Of a DNA stretch of 64,000 nucleotides, positions 14,126 through 57,500 are shown piece after piece. Origin of the DNA: Argopecten irradians (lineage: Eukaryota; Mollusca; Bivalvia; Pectinida; Pectinidae); the NCBI RefSeq assembly GCF_041381155.1, contig NC_091139.1, positions 8,308,383 through 8,372,382 of the forward strand. The letters are read 5' to 3'. Within the stretch, counting starts at the first letter, position 1. Each line of letters opens with the position of its first letter. A model generated the notes under the pieces. That model made no database searches. It was not told where the DNA came from and was given only the letters and a program-made list of their open reading frames with translations. Position numbers and translations under genes: made by a program.

Positions 14126-15083
14126 AAATCATTTTATCACCTTCTCAGTGGTTATGTAGTTCATTTGTTTAACGTGCATTACTTTGGCTCGGGTATGGGT
14201 ACAGCGTCCATATTGTACCTGCTTTCAACGATATTTATTAAAATACTTAATAAGGCCAAGGAATTTGTCAATGTTTTACGTTATATGTTTCATAAGAGAT
14301 GTAGAACAATACATTTATGCTATATTTGGCTTCTTGGTTATGTAAAAGAATTAGCCTGAGTGAATTGTCTCTACAACAACTTTCAAAAGTTTCAAAGGGA
14401 GACAAATTTAAATGTTTACAATGTATCCCTCTGTGGTATCTATGTCGGCAGCGGCTTAATTCTATATATATTATCATACATATTTCGTATTTGGCGGACG
14501 GACTGTTCAATATGTGTAACAGTCATATGATTTGCAACCAAAAATATTAGTTTTAAAAAATCATTTAAAAGTCCCTGTATGGTGGCATATTTCTGCCATC
14601 GAGTTGCCGACTTACGACTAAATGCTGTCGACATAATTAAGGCATTATGTCGACATCATATAGGAAGATGTCGACATAAACAGAAGAATATGTCGACTTA
14701 CAAAATGTACCTGCTCACATAATGATTCCAAGATAATTATGTAGAAAGTCGGTAACTCGGCGATTAATCGTGTTTATGCTCGGGTGTGAGTGACACCGTC
14801 TTGTCAGTTATTGATGTCGACATCTAAACTAAAAGATGGCGACATTTGGTCTTGAAAGTGGAAATCAAAGGCCACCCTTTCATAAAGCACTGTGTATATG
14901 CAGCAAGGCACCATACAGCAGAGATCGACGTTGATTTTGTAAATTCAGGTTTTTATTTATTTGATTTCAAAATCAATAATTGTGATCCAGCACATCCCGG
15001 CCATGCAGCTGTAGCCTGCGTGTACGTAGAGCTCTGTTAGCCCGAGCTGAGGAAGTTAAAGTTCAAAAGGACTCTGCTTTGTA

Positions 15084-15606
15084 GCTGCAATATTGTTGCT
15101 CAAAAGACTTTTTGACAGGAAATAATGTCGTCTTCAGAGCTACAATTGGTGCCTATTACTGCTAATGGAGCAAAGCAATGATTATGCAAACCATTATAAA
15201 ACGCTTGTTTGCATTTTTATCGTACTTGTTTGATATAGCTTACCTTCTAGGGAATAAAACTGAACCACATAAAATATCAAATTCTCACCGAGGCATTATT
15301 TTTTTACATAATATATATGAAGGTCTTTCTGAAGGAAATTTATACGGCAAGTCCACAAATTGTGAATTTGACGTCTTGTGAGCGGTACGGTAGATATAAA
15401 GAAAGGTAGTTATGTTTGTTTTGGACAAAAATCATATGTAAATACATGTATACGCATAAAAAATTGGAAACCTACAAAAAAGTAAAGAAAACTATGTCCG
15501 AGTGATTTTCAGAGGCAGTGCTCCACTACGACACATAGGGACCAACTCGTACCCGGCCGAAAGGTATAGTAGGCCGGGTACGTATATTCGTTCTTTCTGC
15601 TTTGTA
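15084..15606. mobile_element. 523-bp insertion in left arm with 11-bp flanking repeat
   Basis: The direct repeat TCTGCTTTGTA at 15073-15083 and 15596-15606 brackets a segment absent from the matching place in the right arm (about 21057-21075), which has only one copy. Near its right end is a hairpin GTACCCGGCC / GGCCGGGTAC (15549-15581). Either it inserted with an 11-bp target duplication, or the right arm lost it by recombination between the short repeats. Confidence 0.55.
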
Positions 15607-17143
15607 CAACGAACGTGGGTTGAAAATTCGTTTAAAAGCTGTGTGTGTGTTTTATGGATTGGCATTCGTACCAAGTCCATGTGATACATACCGTACTGTA
15701 CTTATATATTAAAAGAATGAATGAAAAATGAAAAATACAAAAGAACGATTTTTCATGTTTTATTTTCTTGCAAATCACGAAAAATACCAAAAGGTCACAG
15801 TACACAATACACATTGGGAAACCAGCTTTACTTGTTAGCTTGCCCTGTTATATATACATAAATATTTACATCCCTCGATACGCTTACAACGAACTTTTGT
15901 TATGGTCGTAATGGCCAGATTCAACATTTGGGCTAAAAATCCTCCCGGACACGGTTTTAAACTCCAAACTCGGGATATATCTGCATCTATTTTTGTAGTA
16001 AAAACATGCGTTCTTTGTAGTCAAACATAGTAAAACAAGTCACGTGCTTATACCTCATTCATGCCATTGGCCGGAATATACAATTGGATTATGGGTAACT
16101 AGTGATCACGTGATTGTGTGTTTACTTCCAAATATGGTGATAGTTTGCTTGCCATTTCTTCGGAAAAACTGATTTATTTGAAAATATTTAGACTCCAAAA
16201 TGTTATTAATATTGCATGCATATCATTTTGACTTGCACATATGTACTGTTTTATAATAAATAACGAACTGATATGAGTTATAAAACTGCCATTTTAACGG
16301 TTTGTAAATAAATGATATAATGCGAATTGACCAATTCAATAGGTCTAACCGTGTAATCTAAGATCAGCGAAGATCGGCTGCTCCCGGCTAAATTCGTAGA
16401 ATTCTAAATCTATATTTACGCAGAGAATATATAATTACCTGCTTTAGGTTTCATAACAGATACATATAACACAGAGAAAATAAGATCTTCGTCAAAAGGC
16501 CAAATTATATATACTAAATACCAGGTCAGAGAAATCACTATATTTGGAAGTAAACACACACTCATGTGATCACTAGTTACCCATAATACAATTCCATATC
16601 TATTTCGGCCAATGGCATGAATTAGGTATAAGCACGTGACTTGTTTTTCTACGTTTGACTACAAAGAACGCGTGTTTTGTACCATTATGGGGAACATCCC
16701 CCGCGGATCGTGGTTTCATTTCCACCATTTGAAATTGCTAAACAATACTATCATATCATTGTTTATTTTTCATATTCTTTCCAAACAAATGGTTAAGCTT
16801 CCGCGTAGCCCACTTGGCTTTTTGGGAATCTAATACATGCGTACACATACTAAGGAAAATGATGTGCATGCACGGGCTTATGTGCTTACATGGTAGCTTC
16901 GCGCCTGGTAAATTGGGACCTAGGACCTAACTCACTATGTATGTACCAGTTTGTTTGTCAGAAATACTCTTCATAGATTAAAAGGTCTCAAGGCCCTCTA
17001 CCAATATTGTGAATTTCATAGTCCTGGGGTGTCTAAATTTTCCCCAGGGGAGAGGGTCAAATTTACCATAGTTTATATAGGGAAACACTTTATGAGCATT
17101 ATTTACTCAGTTTTCATAGGAAATGTAACAGATGTAATGGAAT

Positions 17144-18384
17144 AGATGGAATACTCCTCATAGATTAAAAGGTTAAATTGATATGATAGACCAATATATG
17201 GTGCTTATATACAGTGTATGTCTTTGTTTCATTCTGTATCTGAACTCAGGTGACCAATCAGAAAAAAAAACATAACTGACAGGTGGCTATGGTTTTTTTT
17301 ACTGCTATATAGACTTCAATTTTAGTTTTCCCATGTTATAAAACCTTTTCAAATGGAAAGAAAAAGGTAAAACATTACAGAAATAGAGAAAAGATCCATC
17401 TTTTATTGGCATGATTTACACCAGTCAGTTGTGGGTACCAATTGCAAGTTAATCAAAACTTTAATGTGCAACTGCAGGGGCGTAGGAAGAAAAAGGGTCC
17501 TCCAGCACATTTTTCGTCCTTCCTTTTAGAAAATTTTGCCGCTTTGTGGCGAATTTCCTAAAATGTTCAAGCACGTAATGTTCCAACCTTTAATAATGAA
17601 AATTCAATACACATGGACTAGACTAGAAATGTTCATCAAGGGATTCTACTATTTCAAAAATGTTTCTTAAAATACTAAGTTGTTTATATGTCTTAGCAAG
17701 ACAATTAAATCAATTCATTATTTTTTTTAGTTAAACAACAATGTGCCGATGGTGTGAAGCCGGTAAGTTTAGATCGAGCTGGGTTGCATAATGATATGAC
17801 GACATCCGCAATTATAATTTCTAAACGCAGATAATTTTGAATCAAAAAATTACCACGTTAAGAACGCTTTAAGATCCTCAAAATACATCGTAAAACTCAT
17901 CTCAGTCATTCTAAGTCGTAATTTTTTTTCCCGGGGGAGACCCCCGGACCCCACAAACACCAAAATCTCGCGCATTCGGCGCTCGCAAAATCATCAAATT
18001 AGTAATTTTTTTTTCGAGTGAGACCACCGGACCCCCCAAACACCAAATTGGAAAAGTTAAGATCTTGAAACATGGGAATTGTGAATGGAAAAGTGAAAAA
18101 CAAAAAATGTAACATATGTTGAACTGGTTGTTTGGCATAAAATTACTTTTTTTTGACTCAATATAGTCAATTACTTTCCATGCATTATTCAACCAAAATT
18201 TAGACTGACCATTACATTTCCAGGTCAACATCAATTTTAATTTCAACACAACTTTATTAGGTGATGTTTTAAATAATTGTCAAGGATATACATGAACTTT
18301 GACATCTGACACAACATGTAATCTTCAATTTATCAATGTTCCACGATTAAAGTCTACTCTTCTTGTCCAGGTTGGGTGGTAAGT
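17144..18384. other. Spacer of the giant inverted repeat, left part
   Basis: No supported exon. It contains a second copy of ACTC(C/T)TCATAGATTAAAAGGT (also at 16968), and two related GGGGGAGACCCCCGGACCCC-type segments at about 17925-17955 and 18015-18040, which look like a repeated element fragment. Confidence 0.45.
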
Positions 18385-19330
18385 CTCAGTCTTTTGTAAG
18401 CCAACACAAACTCTGCCTTAGTGCAATATAATTCAAACAAGGTTCAAAACACAATGGAACACAACACTGTTTACATTGGAAAGTGGTTTCCCTTCTAAGA
18501 CGTCTTGGAGCAGGACGTCCCTGATGTTGTGCTCTATACATCTCCATCTCATTCTCACCAGGCCCACAGATTTGGTACCCGTTGGATAGAAGGTGTCCTA
18601 AGAAATGTCTCGCTGACAGGCGCTAAAGGTTGTCTCCCTTCTCCTACCTTTAGATTCTGGTCCTGTCACATCAGCCTCCAAGAAAAGATGGCAGATAATT
18701 TCTATTCTGAAATTGTAAAATTAATAGATAATGAGAATGTTAACTTTCATGATTTCACACAAAAAGCTTTTGATGTCAATTTTTATGCTCCCATTTAATG
18801 GTGATCCACCGCAGACAATTTTTTTCTCTATCAAAAACAAAAGCAGACGATTTAGAATTTTTCTTCAGTTACAAAAGTTACTGACTTTACACCATTACCA
18901 CCATTGAAAAGTTTGAGATTCTAATTTTACTTCAAGATAAAAATATTAAAAATAATTAATTGCATCCCGAAAAAATTCCGTGGCACTATGTCCTATATGG
19001 AATGAAGTACTGATTGTTCAATAATTAATTATTTTAAAATATTTTTTGTGTGTTAATTAGACATATATACACACGATTAAACACCAATTATTGTTCAAAT
19101 GATGTGTATCATTTATTTTCTATCGGCGGTGGAGCATCTTTAAAACATAATATGTACATGATCAAAATTCGGGATTCTTTGTAGATTATATAGGAATTTA
19201 GGACTGCAATGCCAAGGACATGAAAAAAACCTTCTTCCACCATTTCAATGTCCAACTTTGGAAAAACCAACAATGCTTTAAAGAATTTGATATAAAAAAT
19301 AAACTCATTTACTGACATGCGCATCTCCTA
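18385..19330 (-). pseudogene. piggyBac-type transposase relic
   Basis: Reading the minus strand from 19330, the segment to 19144 contains FFHVLGIAVLNSYIIYKE, which resembles the conserved motif near the end of the DDE_Tnp_1_7 (piggyBac) catalytic domain. After the MITE at 18795-19143, decayed sequence matching the LT-x-KAF region follows. The C-terminal cysteine-rich domain (CKQCCVPLCFEPC, preceded by RRETTFQ) lies at about 18435-18490. Stops and frame changes separate the pieces, and the N-terminal two thirds are missing where the right arm of the inverted repeat begins, so it cannot encode an active transposase. This recognition is from motif memory. Confidence 0.7.
18795..19143. mobile_element. 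TTAA-flanked MITE, family 2, copy 1
   Basis: Begins TTAA-TGGTGATCCACCGC and ends GGCGGTGGAGCATCT-TTAA. It is colinear with 24864-25206 and 63616-63985. It sits inside the piggyBac-type relic, so it inserted after that copy arrived. Confidence 0.85.
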
Positions 19331-21466
19331 GCATCAGTGATCCAGTATTTACAATGGAACCAAATCTTTTTCAACAGATAAAATTTTAATGGTTCTCATA
19401 TTATTGATCTATCAACAAAGTGTTTATCTGTAAGAATTCAATTTAGTCTGGCTCTTTGACTTACCTGTATACTGCTTGCATGCGCTTGTGTAGCTCAAAA
19501 CAGTCAGGCGGACAATTTTGTTGTCATCATGTTGATTCCATTACATCTGCTACATTTCCTATGAAAAAGGAGCAAATAATGCTAAAAAATAAAAACCTTG
19601 AGACCTTTCAATCTATGAAGAGTAATTCTGACGAACCAAATGATATACTAATAACCAGTAGTATCTAGGCTTTTTCGTACGGAACCTACCGAAGCATAAT
19701 GAGTTAGGTCCTATATATGTAGGTCCCAATTTAGCACATAAGTCCGTGCATGCACATCATTTTCCTTAGTACAATATATGTGTAAAAGTACGTGTATTAG
19801 ATTCCAAAAAAGCTAATTGGGCTACGTGGAAGCTTTTAAAACCATTTGTTTGGAATGAATCTGGAAATTAAACAATGATACATGTGTGATAGTATTGCTT
19901 AGCAATTTAAAATGCTGGAAATGAAACCACGATCCGCGGGGGATTTTCCCCATAATAGTACAAAACACGCGTTCTTTGTAGTCAAACGTAATCAAACAAG
20001 TCACGTGCTTATACCTCATTCATGCCATTGGCTGAAATAAATATGGAATTGTATTATGGGTTACTAGTGATCACATGAGTGTGTGTTTACTTCCAAATAT
20101 AGTGATTTCTCTGACCTGGTATTTAGTATATATAATTTGGCCTCTTGACGAAGATCTTATTTTCTCTGTGTTATATGTATCTGTTCTGAAACCTAAAGCA
20201 GGTAATAATATACATAAATATAAATGTAGAATTCTACGAATTTAGCCGGGAGCAGCCGATTTTCGCTGATCCTAGATTACACGGTTAGACCTATTGAATT
20301 GGTCAATTCGCATTATATCATTTACTTACAAAACGTGAAAATGGCAGTTTTATAACTCATTTCAGTTCATTATTTATGTTAAAACACTACATATGTGCAA
20401 GTCAAAATGATATGCATGTAATATTAATAACATTTTGGAGTCTAAATATTTTTAAATTAATCAATTTTTCCGAAGAAATGGCAAGCAAACTATCACCATA
20501 TTTGGAAGTAAACACACAATCACATGATCACTAATTACCCATAATACAATTGTATATTCCGGCCAATGACATGAATGAGGTATAAGCACGTGACTTTTCT
20601 TTTACTACGTTTTGACTACAAAAAATAGATGTAGATATATCCCGACTTTGGAGCTAAAACTGCGTCCCGGGAGGATCTTTAGCCCAAAGGCTGAATCTGG
20701 CCATTAAGACCGTCACAAAAATGCGTTGTGCCTTTATAAAAGTGTATCGAGGGACGTAAATATTTATGTATATATATATGGACAAGGCAAGCTAACAAAT
20801 AAAGCTGGTTTCCCAATGTGTATTGTTGTGTACCTGTACTGTGACCTTTATGGTTTTTAAATTATGTAACTGGTATTTTTCGTGATTCGCAAGAAAATAA
20901 AACATGAAAAAATCATTGTTTTGTATTTTTCATTTATTCTTTTAATACAGTATATTAAGGTATGTACCATATAGACTTGGTACGAATGCTAATCCACAAA
21001 GCACACACACAGCTTTAAAACGAATTTTCAACCCACGGTTATATATATTAATAAATGATTGTACAAAGCAGAGTCCTTTTGCACTCTAACTTCCTCAGCT
21101 CGGACTGACAGCTACAATTTGTACGTACACGCAGGCTACAGCTGCATGGCCGGGATGTGCAGGATCACAATTTTTGATTTTGCAATCAAATAAATAAAAA
21201 CTTACACGAATTAACAAAATCAACGTCGATCTCTGCTGTAAGGTGCCTTGCTGCATATACACAGTGTTTTATGAAAGGGTGGCCTTTGATTTCAACTTTC
21301 TACATAATTATCTTGGAATCATTATGCGGGCAGGTACATGTGGTAAGTCGACATATTCTTCTGTTTATGTCGATATCTTCCGATATGATGCCGTCATAAT
21401 GCCTTAATTATGTCGACATCATTAAGTCGTAAGTCGGCAACTCGATGGCTGAAATATGCCACCATA

Positions 21467-22242
21467 TCTCTGTTTTATTAGGTAATCGTCCCAATGTTTA
21501 ATCTGAAAACCCCCAAAAAACCCACATGCAAGACTATTAAGTATGTTGATTAGTCTATCCACCAAATATAAAATATGTGTGACAAAATCCATTTTCAGTA
21601 AATAAGTCCCCTGTGGACCCCCGTCCCCACAATTACTTTATCATATCTTGCACGTACGTACAGAGTACCTGACTCTTATCTAAGCGCTTTTTCCACGCGA
21701 CGGAATCGAAACAACAAGCTAAGTGAGGTCAACTTTAAATGTTAGAAAACGCTGATGACTGATTTCATGTTTTCTAGCAGTAATTTATATATATATAAAT
21801 CTTTCTAGATAGAATCACTGCATAAAATCTATTCTGCACCTGAGCATAATGTATTTAGCTAAGTTTAATTTGAATACAGATGTCACTTTCGTGTACACAG
21901 CGTAACGTTATGTATATCTACAGCCTTCGGAGGGAGTTGCCACTTGAATATTGTATGATAATGTAGTCAAATCATAACGAAGTATGGTGCAGTTATAATA
22001 TAAAAAAGAAATGACCTTTTCATGCAAACAGAATATTGATAGGAAATGGAGAGGAAACGGTTACTTTCAGTATGCCCTATAAGTAGTAGCAATATCCGGT
22101 GTATGCCTATATAAAATTACAAAATTTTATAGAAAATAGAAACTATTCACTTCATGTTCATTTAGAGGACGTCTAACCTAAAATAAATTTAGATATTTCT
22201 ACTGTATGGTAGGCCTATTATGCCTATAACTTTCGTCTGAAC
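21467..22242. promoter_or_regulatory. Upstream region of HSF2BP-like gene
   Basis: Contains at 21530-21635 a single copy of sequence matching one arm of the foldback at 57958-58234 (GTCTATCCACCAAATA, CCCCTGTGGACCC). The rest should hold the HSF2BP promoter and 5' UTR, but I see no decisive TATA box or initiator. Confidence 0.35.
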
Positions 22243-33208: not shown

Positions 33209-42593
<9,385 letters not shown>

Positions 42594-42626
42594 TTTTGAA
42601 GTTGGAGTTGACGCTGGCGGTAAAAT

Positions 42627-44109: not shown

Positions 44110-47100
44110 TTATCATGTCATATTTCCAATACTGACTGCTGCCTTAACTCATCACTGACTTTAAATTAACAGACCACCACCTCCATAATATCATGTCTGT
44201 CATCATGTCATATTGCTGATACTGACCACTGACTTTACAGACCACCACCCTCCACAATATCCTGTTATCATGTCATATTTACCGATACTGACCACTGACA
44301 TTACAGACCACCACCTCCACAATATCCTGTTATCATGTCATTTTACTGATACTGACCACTGACATTACAGACCACCACCTCCACAATATCCTGTTATCAT
44401 GTCATATTGCTGATACTGACCACTGACTTTACAGACCACCACCTCCACAATATCCTGTTATCATGTCATATTACCGATACTGACCACTGACTTTACAGAC
44501 CACCACCTCCACAATACTGTATCATGTCATATTACCGATACTGACCACTGACTTTACAGACCACCACCTCCACAATATCCTGTTATCATGTCATATTACC
44601 GATACTGACCACTGACTTTACAGACCACCACCTCCACAATATCCTGTTATCATGTCATATTACCGATACTGACCACTGACTTTACAGACCACCACCTCCA
44701 CAATATCCTGTTATCATGTCATATTACCGATACTGACCACTGACTTTACAGACCACCACCTCCACAATATCCTGTTATCATGTCATATTGCTGATACTGA
44801 CCACTGACTTTACAGACCCCACCTCCACAATACTGTTACATGTCATATCGATACTGCCACTGACAATAAGACCACCCCTCCACAATATCCTGTTATCATG
44901 TCATATTGCTGATACTGACCACTGACTTTACAGACCACCACCTCCACAATATCCTGTTATCATGTCATATTACCGATACTGACCACTGACTTTACAGACC
45001 ACCACCTCCACAATATCCTGTTATCATGTCATATTGCTGATACTGACCACTGACTTTACAGACCACCACCTCCACAATATCCTGTTATCATGTCATATTG
45101 CTGATACTGACCACTGACTTTACAGACCACCACCTCCACAATATCCTGTTATCATGTCATATTACCGATACTGACCACTGACTTTACAGACCACCACCTC
45201 CACAATATCCTGTTATCATGTCATATTGCTGATACTGACCACTGACATTACAGACCACCACCTCCACAATATCCTGTTATCATGTCATATTGCCGATACT
45301 GACCACTGACTTTACAGACCCACCACCACTCCACAATATCCTGTTATCATCATGTCATATTACCGATGACTGACCACTGACATTACAGACCACCACCTCC
45401 ACAATATCCTGTTATCATGTCATATTACCGATACTGACCACTGACTTTACAGACCACCACCTCCACAATATCCTGTTATCATGTCATATTGCTGATACTG
45501 ACCACTGACATTACAGACCACCACCTCCACAATATCCTGTTATCATGTCATATTACCGATACTGACCACTGACATTACAGACCCCCACCTCCACAATATC
45601 CTGTTATCATGTCATATTACTGATACTGACCACTGACATTACAGACCACCACCTCCACAATATCCTGTTATCATGTCATATTGCCGATACTGACCACTGA
45701 CATTACAGACCACCACCTCCACAATATCCTGTTATCATGTCATATTTGATACTGACCACTGACATTACAGACCACCACCTCCACAATATCCTGTTATCAT
45801 GTCATATTACCCGATACTGACCACTGACTTTACAGACACCACCTCCACAATATCCTGTTATCATGTCATAATTACTGATACTGACCACTGACATTACAGA
45901 CCACCACCTCCACAATATCCTGTTATCATGTCATATTACCGATACTGACCACTGACATTACAGACCACCACCTCCACAATATCCTGTTATCATGTCATAT
46001 TGCTGATACTGACCACTGACATTACAGACCACCACCTCCACAATATCCTGTTATCATGTCATATTACCGATACTGACCACTGACATTACAGACCACCACC
46101 TCCACAATATCCTGTTATCATGTCATATTACCGATACTGACCACTGACTTTACAGACCCCCACCTCCACAATATCCTGTTATCATGTCATATTACCGATA
46201 CTGACCACTGACATTACAGACCACCACCTCCACAATATCCTGTTATCATGTCATATTACTGATACTGACCACTGACATTACAGACCACCACCTCCACAAT
46301 ATCCTGTTATCATGTCATATTACCGATACTGACCACTGACTTTACAGACCCCCACCTCCACAATATCCTGTTATCATGTCATATTGCTGATACTGACCAC
46401 TGACTTTACAGACCACCACCTCCACAATATCCTGTTATCATGTCATATTACCGATACTGACCACTGACTTTACAGACCACCACCTCCACAATATCCTGTT
46501 ATCATGTCATATTACTGATACTGACCACTGACTTTACAGACCACCACCTCCACAATATCCTGTTATCATGTCATATTGCTGATACTGACCACTGACTTTA
46601 CAGACCACCACCTCCACAATATCCTGTTATCATGTCATATTACCGATACTGACCACTGACTTTACAGACCACCACCTCCACAATATCCTGTTATCATGTC
46701 ATATTGCTGATACTGACGATACTGACCACTGACTTTACAGACCCCCACCTCCACAATATCCTGTTATCATTCTTATACTTACTGATACAGACCACTGACA
46801 TTACAGACCACCACCCTCCACAAATATCCAATATCCTGTTATCATGTCATATTACCGATACTGACCACTGACTTTACAGACCACCACCTCCACAATATCC
46901 TGTTATCATGTCATATTGCTGATACTGACCACTGACTTTACAGACCACCACCTCCACAATATCCTGTTATCATGTCATATTACCGATACTGACCACTGAC
47001 TTTACAGACCACCACCTCCACAATATCATGTCATCATGTCATATTGCTGATACTGACCACTGACATTACAGACCACCACCTCCACAATATCCTGTTATCA

Positions 47101-48150
47101 TGTCATATTACTGATACTGACCACTGACTTTACAGACCACCACCTCCACAATATCATGTTATCATGTCATATTGCTGATACTGACCACTGACTTTACAGA
47201 CCCACCACCTCCACAATATCCTGTTATCATGTCATATTGCTGATACTGACCACTGACTTTACAGACCACCACCTCCACAATATCCTGTTATCATGTCATA
47301 TTACCGATACTGACCCACTGACATTACACAGACCACCACCTCCACAATATCCTGTATCATGTCATATTGCTGATACTGACCACTGACTTTACAGACCCCC
47401 ACCTCCACAATATCCTGTTATCATGTCATATTACCGATACTGACCACTGACTTTACAGACCACCACCTCCACAATATCCTGTTATCATGTCATATTACCG
47501 ATACTGACCACTGACTTTACAGACCACCACCTCCACAATATCCTGTTTATCATGTCATATTACCGATACTGACCACTGACTTTACAGACCACCACCTCCA
47601 CAATATCCTGTTATCATGTCATATTACCGATACTGACCACTGACTTTACAGACCACCACCTCCACAATATCCTGTTATCATGTCATATTACCGATACTGA
47701 CCACTGACTTTACAGACCACCACCTCCACAATATCCATCATGTCATATATACCGATACTGACCACTGACTTTACAGACCACCACCTCCACAATATCCTGT
47801 TATCATGTCATATTACCGATACTGACCACTGACTTTACAGACCACCACCTCCACAATATCCTGTTATCATGTCATATTACCGATACTGACCACTGACTTT
47901 TTACAGACCACCACCTCCACAATATCTGTTATCATGTCATATTACTTTACTGACCAGTCATCATGTCATATTACCGATACTGACCACTGACTTTACAGAC
48001 CACCACCTCCACAATATCCTGTTATCATGTCATATTACCGATACTGACCACTGACTTTACAGACCACCACCTCCACAATATCCTGTTATCATGTCATATT
48101 ACCGATACTGACCTTTACAGACACTGACATTACAGACCCCCACCTCCACA
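44110..48150. repeat. 4-kb satellite-like array, 64-bp unit
   Basis: About 63 copies of a 64-bp unit CAGACCACCACCTCCACAAT-ATCCTGTTATCATGTCATAT-TACCGATACTGACCACTGAC-TTTA. Two diagnostic sites vary (TACCGAT or TGCTGAT; GACTTT or GACATT). Most copies are nearly identical; scattered units have indels. Confidence 0.97.
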
Positions 48151-54019: not shown

Positions 54020-54532
54020 TTTTGCACAGAATCATAAATTCACACAATACAAACACAGACTCTGGGATTTGTGACCCTAAACTCTAAGGCCTGATATGTA
54101 TAGGGATCATGATGCCCCAATTCGCAAGGGGGTTGGGGGGGGGAGGTGGTTGTTTCTGTGTATGGGTATTCTGCTCAATCATCATATTCTCTTTTTGAAA
54201 ATAATATAATTGATTAGTAATGATAATGATGAATATAGGGATGATAGCTCTAGTCCCAAGAAGAATTTTCCTATCATAACACCTTTGGCTTAATTTAATT
54301 TCTTCAAAAATAACGACCTTATCTTGGCACTACATGTACATGGTAGAATAGAACCTCCATCAGCCATAAAAAATCACGATCTTTGAGTTTGATTACCAAC
54401 ACAACAAATTCATTATTTTACTTGCATGGTTCATGCTCTACCTATATAGTTCCAGTAAAACTAATTTTATAATACAGATAGGTATTTGTTTAACTTTTAA
54501 TTTGGTTTTTCTTTATTATCTGTTTTAGGAAG

Positions 54533-57500
54533 ATGGCATCTAATGAAGATTCACCACCCATAGAACAAAGTGATCAGGCATCCCCTACACCTGAACTACA
54601 CTCTGAAGACAATGAAAGATTGGAACTTTTACAAAACTCCATCCACAAAGAAACAACAGAGGAAGAAGGAAATGATAGCTTCACATTACTAAAAGACCTG
54701 GAAACTGATTTCTTGACAATAGAAACTCTGCCTGTTGAAATTCTGATGCATATTTTTAATTTCCTTGATGCCAAATTTATCGTTGAAACTCTTGGAAAAG
54801 TTTGTGTTCTTTTCAAGGATTTATTTAGTGGAGATACATATTGGAAGACAAGACTAAGTAAGCGATGTCCAGAACAATATCCCCCAGTATATGGTATGTT
54901 ATACTATCTGGTATATCTCATATCTTTAATTACAATACAATACATATGTAAGTTTAAAATTGTACTTCTGTGTCTGTGCTCAAAGATGCTCCTTCATTCA
55001 TCACCATATAATGCTCCCATTGTACATATGTAAAAAAATAACTACTACATGTAAATCTGTTTGCTTATTTTCCTATCATATCCTCATCAGAGCCATATTG
55101 TCGTATCATTTTACCATAAAGGAGGTGTTTATTCTTATTCAGCATGACAATAGTAGAACATGGAGAATTAGCAAAATGACCATAGAGATAGATACAAAAC
55201 ATAGTCTACCAAATACAGTACAATATACATATATGTACAAATATGTATACAAATGATAATGTATCATATGGGAAATTGATGAGGATTAGCATTCACGTGG
55301 TGGAGGATAGATGTACGGTAGTATATATGTACTGATTTGTCTTCATTTTTTTTTCTTTTCTAGAGGAGAATTTTAACTGGTCTGAAGCCTGTGTAGAGCG
55401 TGAGGAACAATACAGAGTTTGGAGTAAGCCAGAGGAAACATGTGTTCACATATCGTACAAACAAGCAATCTTTGCCTCGGTCGATACCGTCCATCTGATG
55501 AAGGTATGATTTACATAATGGAAAGGGCTTCATTTTAGGAAAAGGCAAGATTCTATCAATACTATTCCAGTTTTATATCTAGAAGGAAGGTCTTGTATGT
55601 CCATGTAGTAGATTATAACTCCACTTATGTTTGATTTATACAGGATGCGACACTCTTGGCTACAGGATCAAGAGACCGCTACCTCAACTTGTTAGATCTG
55701 ACCAAATATAACGAAGAGGACCCGATAGCAAGCATGAAAGAAATGAGCTTAATTTCTACTGACAAAAAGCACAAGGTAAATGTTCGACTGGCAAAACATT
55801 TAATAGTTAAATATTGTATTGTTTTCAGACTTCTTTCCTGCTAAATATAGCACCTCTTTGCTTCTCGGGGCTGCCACCTGGTGACAAAGTGGTTTGTGAT
55901 TTCAAATCTATGTGGGGCAGTTGCCAGGAACTAACCGCTGGTAAGTGATATTTCTCCAGGTACTCTGGCTTTCCTACATAACAAATCTAGCACGTCTTTA
56001 AATGACTGACTGTTATTAGAAAATTTGCTTCTAGTTATTTAATGCAAAATATAACCTGTCAAACCAGTTCTTGTTTAATCTAGATCCTGGTATATTCTGT
56101 AAAGCGCTGTTTGACTGTAGGGTTGGATATGGTCGTTGGCCTCCTATGACGACATTCTGTGTTCAGGGTCATGGGACTGCTACATAAAGCTGTGGGACTT
56201 AAACGCTGACCTAGCGGAAATCAACAAATTTAAGTAAGATTTTATTTCTATAACTTGTTTATTAAGACATGAAACAAATTTTTTTTGTCTCATTAGGAGA
56301 TTATTTATTTTGATAACTTCTGAAAATGTCCACTGCAGTGTTTAAATGTAGTGGTTAGGTTCAAATCTAGGAAAAGATATGATCTAGGATTTAAAGCACA
56401 CATGTATATATAAATCTACCGTAATTGCCCTCTAGAGGGAGACGTTACACAATAAAATCAATTTAATTGTCTTAAAAAGAGAGACAAACTTAGAATTGTA
56501 GTTAAGACCGATAAGTACTGGGTAATTTTATCAAAATGAGGATTCAACTTCCCTGCAAGACAGCCTATCACACATACATTTCAGACTGTGATGTTGTTAA
56601 TAAAGAGAATAAAACACGGTACATTTGAAATAAGATATGGTTGTTTCTTTATGATACTGATCTTGTTTGTAGTGAAGACAACATGTCCATCTTTGTGGAA
56701 TCAAGTCTTGTGACATTTGATGTTTCTAGGTGTAAATCGGCTATCCTCGGACTCCATGCTGAACCTAACTGGATTGTAGCTGCGGGGTATAACCAATTCC
56801 TCTATATGATCGACCCTCGAAGTGGATCTGGCGAGAAAAAGAAGTTCCATCGTCGCCCAGTTCTTTGTGTTGTTGCTGACGACAAATATGTGATCAGTGG
56901 CAGTGAAGATAAAACCATGGCGATCTTTGACAGACGGGCGGGTCGTGTATATAAAACTATTCAGGTGAGGCAGTGACCATAAAAATATCTTATCTTTATA
57001 CTTTTTAATTGAAATCATTTATTTGATTTATGATTGGATTAATTTCATTTTTTCTATATCAATTTTGCAAGCATTTTGTGATTGCTTATCAAATCTTGCT
57101 CTATTTTTTTCTAAATCACTTGCATTGTGATAATCATGTAATAGTACTTTACTTTTCCAAAGTTAAATTTTATTGCAGAATTCATTATGAATAAGTGAAT
57201 AAGTTAGTGCAGTGATGAATTCATGCATTCATAGTAACATAAGAATGTACAATAAACTCAATCATATCTTAGCATAAAATGCTAAAAAAAGTGTTGAAAT
57301 ATGATTACCATTAAATATGTAAGTGAATGGTATGTTGTTTGCAATAAGTTTGTACAGACATATATGACACCAGCCACGCAAGTCTCTCGGTCATTCACTT
57401 CCCTCCTACTTCAGAAATACCACTTACACAATATATTAGCTACGCTACTTGGAGTAATGAATATTTTGCCATTGTGAATATGTGACCATGTGGGGTATGC

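Follow-up and report, generated by a model that had tools for sequence, protein, structure and literature searches.

The 64,000-nucleotide stretch of DNA analysed here (the window) contains a giant palindrome at positions 14578-21466, corresponding to C6:8322960-8329848 in the 846-Mb assembly. Self-comparison resolved a left arm of 2,566 bp (14578-17143, plus strand) that is inverted with respect to a right arm of 1,932 bp (19535-21466, minus strand), the two being separated by a spacer of 2,391 bp (17144-19534). When positions 14501-21550 were compared with themselves using BLAST (cut-off 1e-5), the arms were detected as blocks of up to 1.3 kb with 86-94% identity overall: 14578-14749/21295-21466 (172 bp, 93.6% identity), 14854-15083/21062-21300 (239 columns, 90.0%), 15614-16886/19733-21037 (1,342 columns, 85.9%) and, innermost, two short blocks of 50 and 55 bp (88-89%) that extend to 17143/19535. 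Each arm also carries its own inverted repeat with stems of about 135-145 bp. In the left arm the stems at 16001-16141 (plus) and 16534-16678 (minus) are 90% identical and enclose a loop of 392 nt, and in the right arm those at 19972-20106 (plus) and 20492-20625 (minus) are 84% identical around a loop of 385 nt. The outer termini, TATGGTGGCATAT (14578-14590, plus) and ATATGCCACCATA (21454-21466, minus), are an exact inverted match. A sequence-only reading of the window had described a two-level palindrome with arms of about 2.6 and 1.9 kb, a 2.4-kb spacer, inner stems of about 135 bp around loops of about 400 bp, and outer edges matching base for base; the self-comparison bears out this description throughout.

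The left arm is the longer one because it contains an extra segment of about 0.5 kb (15084-15601) and because the right arm lacks the counterpart of 14750-14853. The extra segment is missing in both arms of a relative of the element, L009, and is probably a later insertion; the stretch of about 0.1 kb without counterpart in the right arm is present at both ends of L009. Five GTCGAC motifs, proposed to bind a transposase, lie near the left end (at 14627, 14649, 14670, 14692 and 14816, i.e. within 14627-14821, plus strand), and two near the right end (at 21347 and 21412, i.e. within 21347-21417, minus strand). No open reading frame of at least 150 aa was found in the element, spacer included, and no Rfam match in the whole window. 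A structural RNA was rejected as the identity of the palindrome since the window has no such match. Elsewhere, the window contains a host-like piece of a ZER1-like gene (37943-42626, minus strand; LRR_Zer-1 and ZER1-like_2nd), a 64-bp tandem array of about 59 copies with a GC skew near -0.5 (44169-47956), and a host-like F-box piece followed by a weak, below-cut-off WD40 match (54494-56973, plus strand).

A multi-copy family sharing ends and layout

The assembly, which includes the window, was searched for further copies. The 37-nt terminus matches 244 + 248 = 492 places within 3 mismatches, versus none for the reversed control, which excludes the single genomic copy that the sequence-only reading had named as evidence against its proposal. 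The first 823 bp of the element have at least 44 genome matches, with 40 of 2,936 candidates scored. Among the ends of this family (family A) in an incomplete list of 92 + 103, 32 pairs face inward at distances of 4.1-13.4 kb, versus one outward-facing pair within 14 kb; a 33rd entry, which reflects a tandem junction overlapping by 2 bp, was excluded, as were two tandem units on C2, and one erroneous minus end in the list (C7 near 20.77 Mb) forms no pair. The spacings of the listed pairs include 8.60, 8.88, 8.88 and 8.90 kb. For a detailed sample we used 15 copies with both ends, of which L062 and L063 represent the same insertion at two nearly identical loci. In 12 of these copies there are exactly four inner stems, with two in each arm; the other three have seven, two and a single one, respectively. 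Long arms are also found in the relatives L009, L010, L011 and L013, of 8.6-8.9 kb; in the first three the arms are 94-95% identical over their outer 0.9 kb and 85% over the following 1.2 kb. The symmetry of the window element is far above chance, as both the BLAST blocks and the same layout at other loci demonstrate. The window copy is collinear with L009 in reverse orientation at 80-93% identity, parts of the spacer matching the L009 interior in the same range, and it appears to be an older copy with internal shortening. A search with the inner palindrome, in which 40 of 1,060 candidates were scored, gave matches of 92-94% besides itself, not all of them tied to an A end. One A copy, at C4:33205226-33216292, has 2.6-kb arms with 93.5% identity (99.9% over the outer 850 bp), and its flanks resemble, by eye, the arm of A itself, hinting at an insertion of A into A.

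The first 850 bp of the arms were compared among the 15 copies. For 24 of 30 arms, the arm of another copy is nearer than the partner within the same copy, so the palindrome was inherited by the family. Both arms are nearest to each other in two copies, C4_33.2 (99.9% versus 98.5%) and C7_29.7 (99.2% versus 96.7%), as expected if arms occasionally exchange sequence, and one arm each of L053 and C1_28.9 is nearer to its own partner by less than 1 point. That the two-level symmetry is inherited across the family counts against a misassembly.

The GTCGAC motif is a further feature common to the ends. In the 15 copies the outer 280 bp have a density of 18.3 per kb, versus 0.22 per kb inside, where all sites belong to one copy (C1_28.9); outside the element, the window has five sites in 57 kb. 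We propose these repeats as candidate transposase sites.

Target-site duplications and an empty site

The flanks of the window copy, TCCCTG (14572-14577) and TCTCTG (21467-21472), form a 6-bp target-site duplication (TSD) with one mismatch. Flanks were compared in the same manner for all 15 copies. Eight show a 6-bp match with at most one mismatch, six of them exact, versus 1 of 210 control pairings between the left flank of one copy and the right flank of a different copy. At lengths of 3, 4, 5, 7 or 8 bp, exact matches were seen in 0 of 15 copies, and at 2 bp in one. A clear 6-bp TSD is absent in the flank comparison for 7 of the 15. For two of these, C4_33.2 and L054, the flanks are inverted repeats of each other, which a plain insertion does not account for. 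The sequence-only reading had suggested looking for copies with the same outer ends, different flanks and TA duplications. Multiple copies with different flanks do exist; the duplications are of 6 bp. A TA duplication was rejected as the flanks agree over 6 bp outside TATGG..CCATA, the terminal TA being part of the element ends and not duplicated target.

An empty site was also identified. L062 lies within another repeat, with CTTGTG on either side, and the L063 locus is 99% identical. Their joined flanks have 117 genome matches within 2 mismatches, of which 98 of the 100 listed are exact. These 117 matches do not equal 117 separate elements, because the listed elements of a sister family, B (see below), can bear the site near both ends. 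The TSDs, together with one insertion and its empty site, establish that the family transposes. Very long inverted arms make up most of an element that is present in many copies with TSDs, as in foldback transposons, and the earlier suggestion of a large foldback transposon is supported by the many copies, the common ends, the differing flanks and the target-site duplications.

These data also bear on two other origins of the palindrome. Host DNA could have been duplicated in inverted orientation, or misassembled, at the window locus alone. One locus with two diverged arms does look like a local duplication, and the palindromic flanks of C4_33.2 and L054 would favour a duplication or misassembly as well. 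Against this stand the recurrence of arms, stems and ends at differently flanked sites on many chromosomes, the near-perfect 6-bp duplication bordering the whole unit, and the divergence of the arms in the window, as a fresh misassembled duplicate would be identical. We regard this origin as extremely improbable. The palindrome could also be a composite of two opposed A-type elements, each with a small palindrome, inserted side by side; nested and adjacent A ends do exist (L013, L014 and L055). Such a composite is very unlikely, given that arms and spacer together are collinear with L009 and that the 6-bp duplication, with its one mismatch, borders the unit as a whole at its outer ends. A single transposable element with inherited arms is our preferred reading.

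Tandem junctions of A ends

At nine places two A ends are joined as GCCACCATATGGTGGC, with one TA in common (CCA-TA-TGG) and without a TSD between them: C2:45087, C5:22302397, C5:44575660, C5:44777994, C8:21446108, C8:35935863, C10:12644185, C401:4878 and C401:10556. The TA-sharing pattern is near-palindromic and gave 18 strand hits, versus none for the control, and junctions with a spacer of 0-25 nt were found at one place. All four junctions read at the letter level are head-to-tail, right end to left end, and belong to a 5.6-kb subfamily. They are 94-98% identical over 3 kb and may therefore derive from one copied dimer. On C401 a distance of 5,678 bp separates two junctions, and this array probably consists of at least three consecutive units.

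Bacterial IS3 elements move through a circular or dimeric intermediate. By analogy, there is a small chance that family A moves, at least at times, via an end-joined (circular or dimeric) intermediate like that of IS3. Joining of ends through complementary TA would also give TA-sharing junctions, and so might amplification of one accident. The TA-sharing junctions provide a way of testing if eukaryotic IS3EU elements use such an IS3-like intermediate.

A sister family and linked integrase-type genes

The ends of family B, TATGGTGGCTGATTACGG, were found at 480 genome places within two mismatches, and have subterminal repeats of their own that are rich in CGACAA/GTCGAC. An example of B lies at L061:70-724; several of the listed B end pairs are 4.5-5.7 kb apart, and others enclose an A element. 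A 631-bp stretch of B in L061, from the A end to the B end, has matches with 97-100% identity (40 of 819 candidates scored). By the incomplete list of A ends, this stretch adjoins an A end at 15 of the 40 scored places, and its first 58 bp do so at 19 of 40. Family A thus often sits at one fixed position within B.

The genome has 145 scored matches to rva_4 (PF24764), an integrase core. Six of them, with 122-133 bits, form a subgroup delimited by score. Four of these six genes, at C16:25.97 Mb, C1048, C10:24.35 Mb and C16:10.41 Mb, have an A end or the flank conserved beside it at a distance of 1.3-2.0 kb. The first two loci are copies with 99% identity, and the A end was read at the letter level beside the gene only at C16:25.97 Mb and C10. 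No linkage of the other two genes was seen among the ends listed. At C16:10412732-10415554, match positions place the rva_4 gene with an A-end flank on one side and a B end on the other. The rva_4 profile is matched at 4.5e-37 and 4.3e-38 by the proteins of C16:25.97 Mb and C10, respectively. Residues D190, D249 and E290 are invariant in all five aligned rva_4 proteins and are putative catalytic residues. An HTH_21 match of one rva_4 protein is below Pfam's cut-off, and the six matches of the linked transposase in a PDB search (E 0.74-0.97) are regarded as chance. Judged by its domain, the linked rva_4 gene is a candidate IS3EU-type transposase. Neither an A- nor a B-type end is present in the 6 kb read at L057, an rva_4 locus 13 kb from an A end, and L058, L059 and L060, which represent other rva_4 groups, have only one 32-bp match to L009, the window element and L062. 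A hairpin-rich repeat lies beside the transposase gene at L061:3637-4067 and recurs at 30 places over about 400 bp with 86-91% identity.

No transposase was recognised between two A ends in any copy read. In the relatives, open reading frames of at least 100 aa were inspected by eye, an approach by which exon-split genes could be missed. The reverse-transcriptase-like frames of one copy, C1_33.8, were assigned by eye to a LINE insertion. The homogeneous 5.6-kb subfamily (L062, L063) was considered as the autonomous form and rejected, as no transposase was recognised inside it. The possibility, raised in the sequence-only reading, that the element was once autonomous is thus not shown by the copies read, within the limits of this inspection.

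Mobilisation of A by the enzyme of B is suggested by the linkage and by the similarity of the ends. The family may have originated when an end already bearing a small palindrome underwent inverted duplication, once and before the family spread, creating the arms. Sister family B would supply an rva_4 transposase of the integrase (DDE) type, which would bind the GTCGAC repeats near the A ends and cut at TATGG/CCATA, and the element would be inserted with a 6-bp stagger. The arms would then mostly diverge, a few copies being re-homogenised by exchange between arms.

Class of the element and comparison with known systems

As far as the cited descriptions go, IS3EU elements have 6-bp TSDs, terminal inverted repeats (TIRs) of more than 30 bp and termini TAYGG..CCRTA (PMC12730594), the termini always being TA..TA and the TSDs usually 6 bp (PMC10045372). 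Family A ends in TATGG..CCATA with an outermost TIR block of 172 bp, and eight of the 15 copies have the corresponding TSD with at most one mismatch. An IS3EU-type DDD/E transposase was found neither among the window element's open reading frames of at least 150 aa nor, by eye, among those of the relatives with 100 aa or more. Because no transposase of its own was found, our claim as to class is limited to a non-autonomous element with IS3EU-type ends. The ends could also belong to a foldback element of another superfamily, for instance Ginger- or P/Galileo-like, and merely resemble those of IS3EU. The rva_4 matches in the genome are indeed those of a numerous integrase-core family, and Galileo, of the P superfamily, is described in PMC3688188 as having long TIRs with repeated binding sites. 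The combination of a 6-bp TSD with TATGG..CCATA is, however, the IS3EU signature in the published descriptions cited, which makes another superfamily quite unlikely. The palindrome of the window is thus, with high probability, one old copy of family A, a multi-copy, non-autonomous and foldback-like family with IS3EU-type ends that is moved in trans.

The sequence-only reading had found that no known class came to mind. A foldback-like non-autonomous DNA transposon with IS3EU-type ends does fit, and the element is ordinary in kind as a DNA transposon, its unusual features being how large the arms are and how they are nested. An odd giant palindrome is thereby accounted for as inherited transposon anatomy. 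Family A provides a well-supported case of a non-autonomous family with kilobase arms and IS3EU-type ends, accompanied by a sister that likely bears the transposase. Such arms could serve as substrates for inversions and arm-to-arm exchange. In the open-licence PMC literature we met no paper on IS3EU together with foldback elements, the pairing not having been queried directly; two oyster satellites are labelled DNA/IS3EU in PMC8268682.

Family A resembles IS3EU, as described in the passages cited, in its 6-bp TSDs, its TATGG..CCATA ends, its TIRs of far more than 30 bp and the linked integrase-type DDE gene. It differs in that the copies read have no recognised transposase, and in that its arms reach 2.6 kb and contain an inner palindrome, a feature unmentioned in the IS3EU descriptions cited. 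Tetris, a foldback transposon of Drosophila virilis, is according to PMC4079207 also apparently non-autonomous; it has only end portions of its TIRs in common with a second family, and one autonomous element probably moves both. Family A is likewise apparently non-autonomous and foldback-like and seems to stand in a comparable relation to a second family, but the arms of Tetris, in that account, carry 220-bp tandem repeats, whereas each A arm contains an inverted repeat. Galileo of Drosophila (PMC3688188) has very long TIRs with multiple transposase-binding sites. The TIRs of family A are also very long and carry repeated GTCGAC, for which a binding role is proposed only, and the transposase of Galileo belongs to a superfamily other than that proposed for family A.
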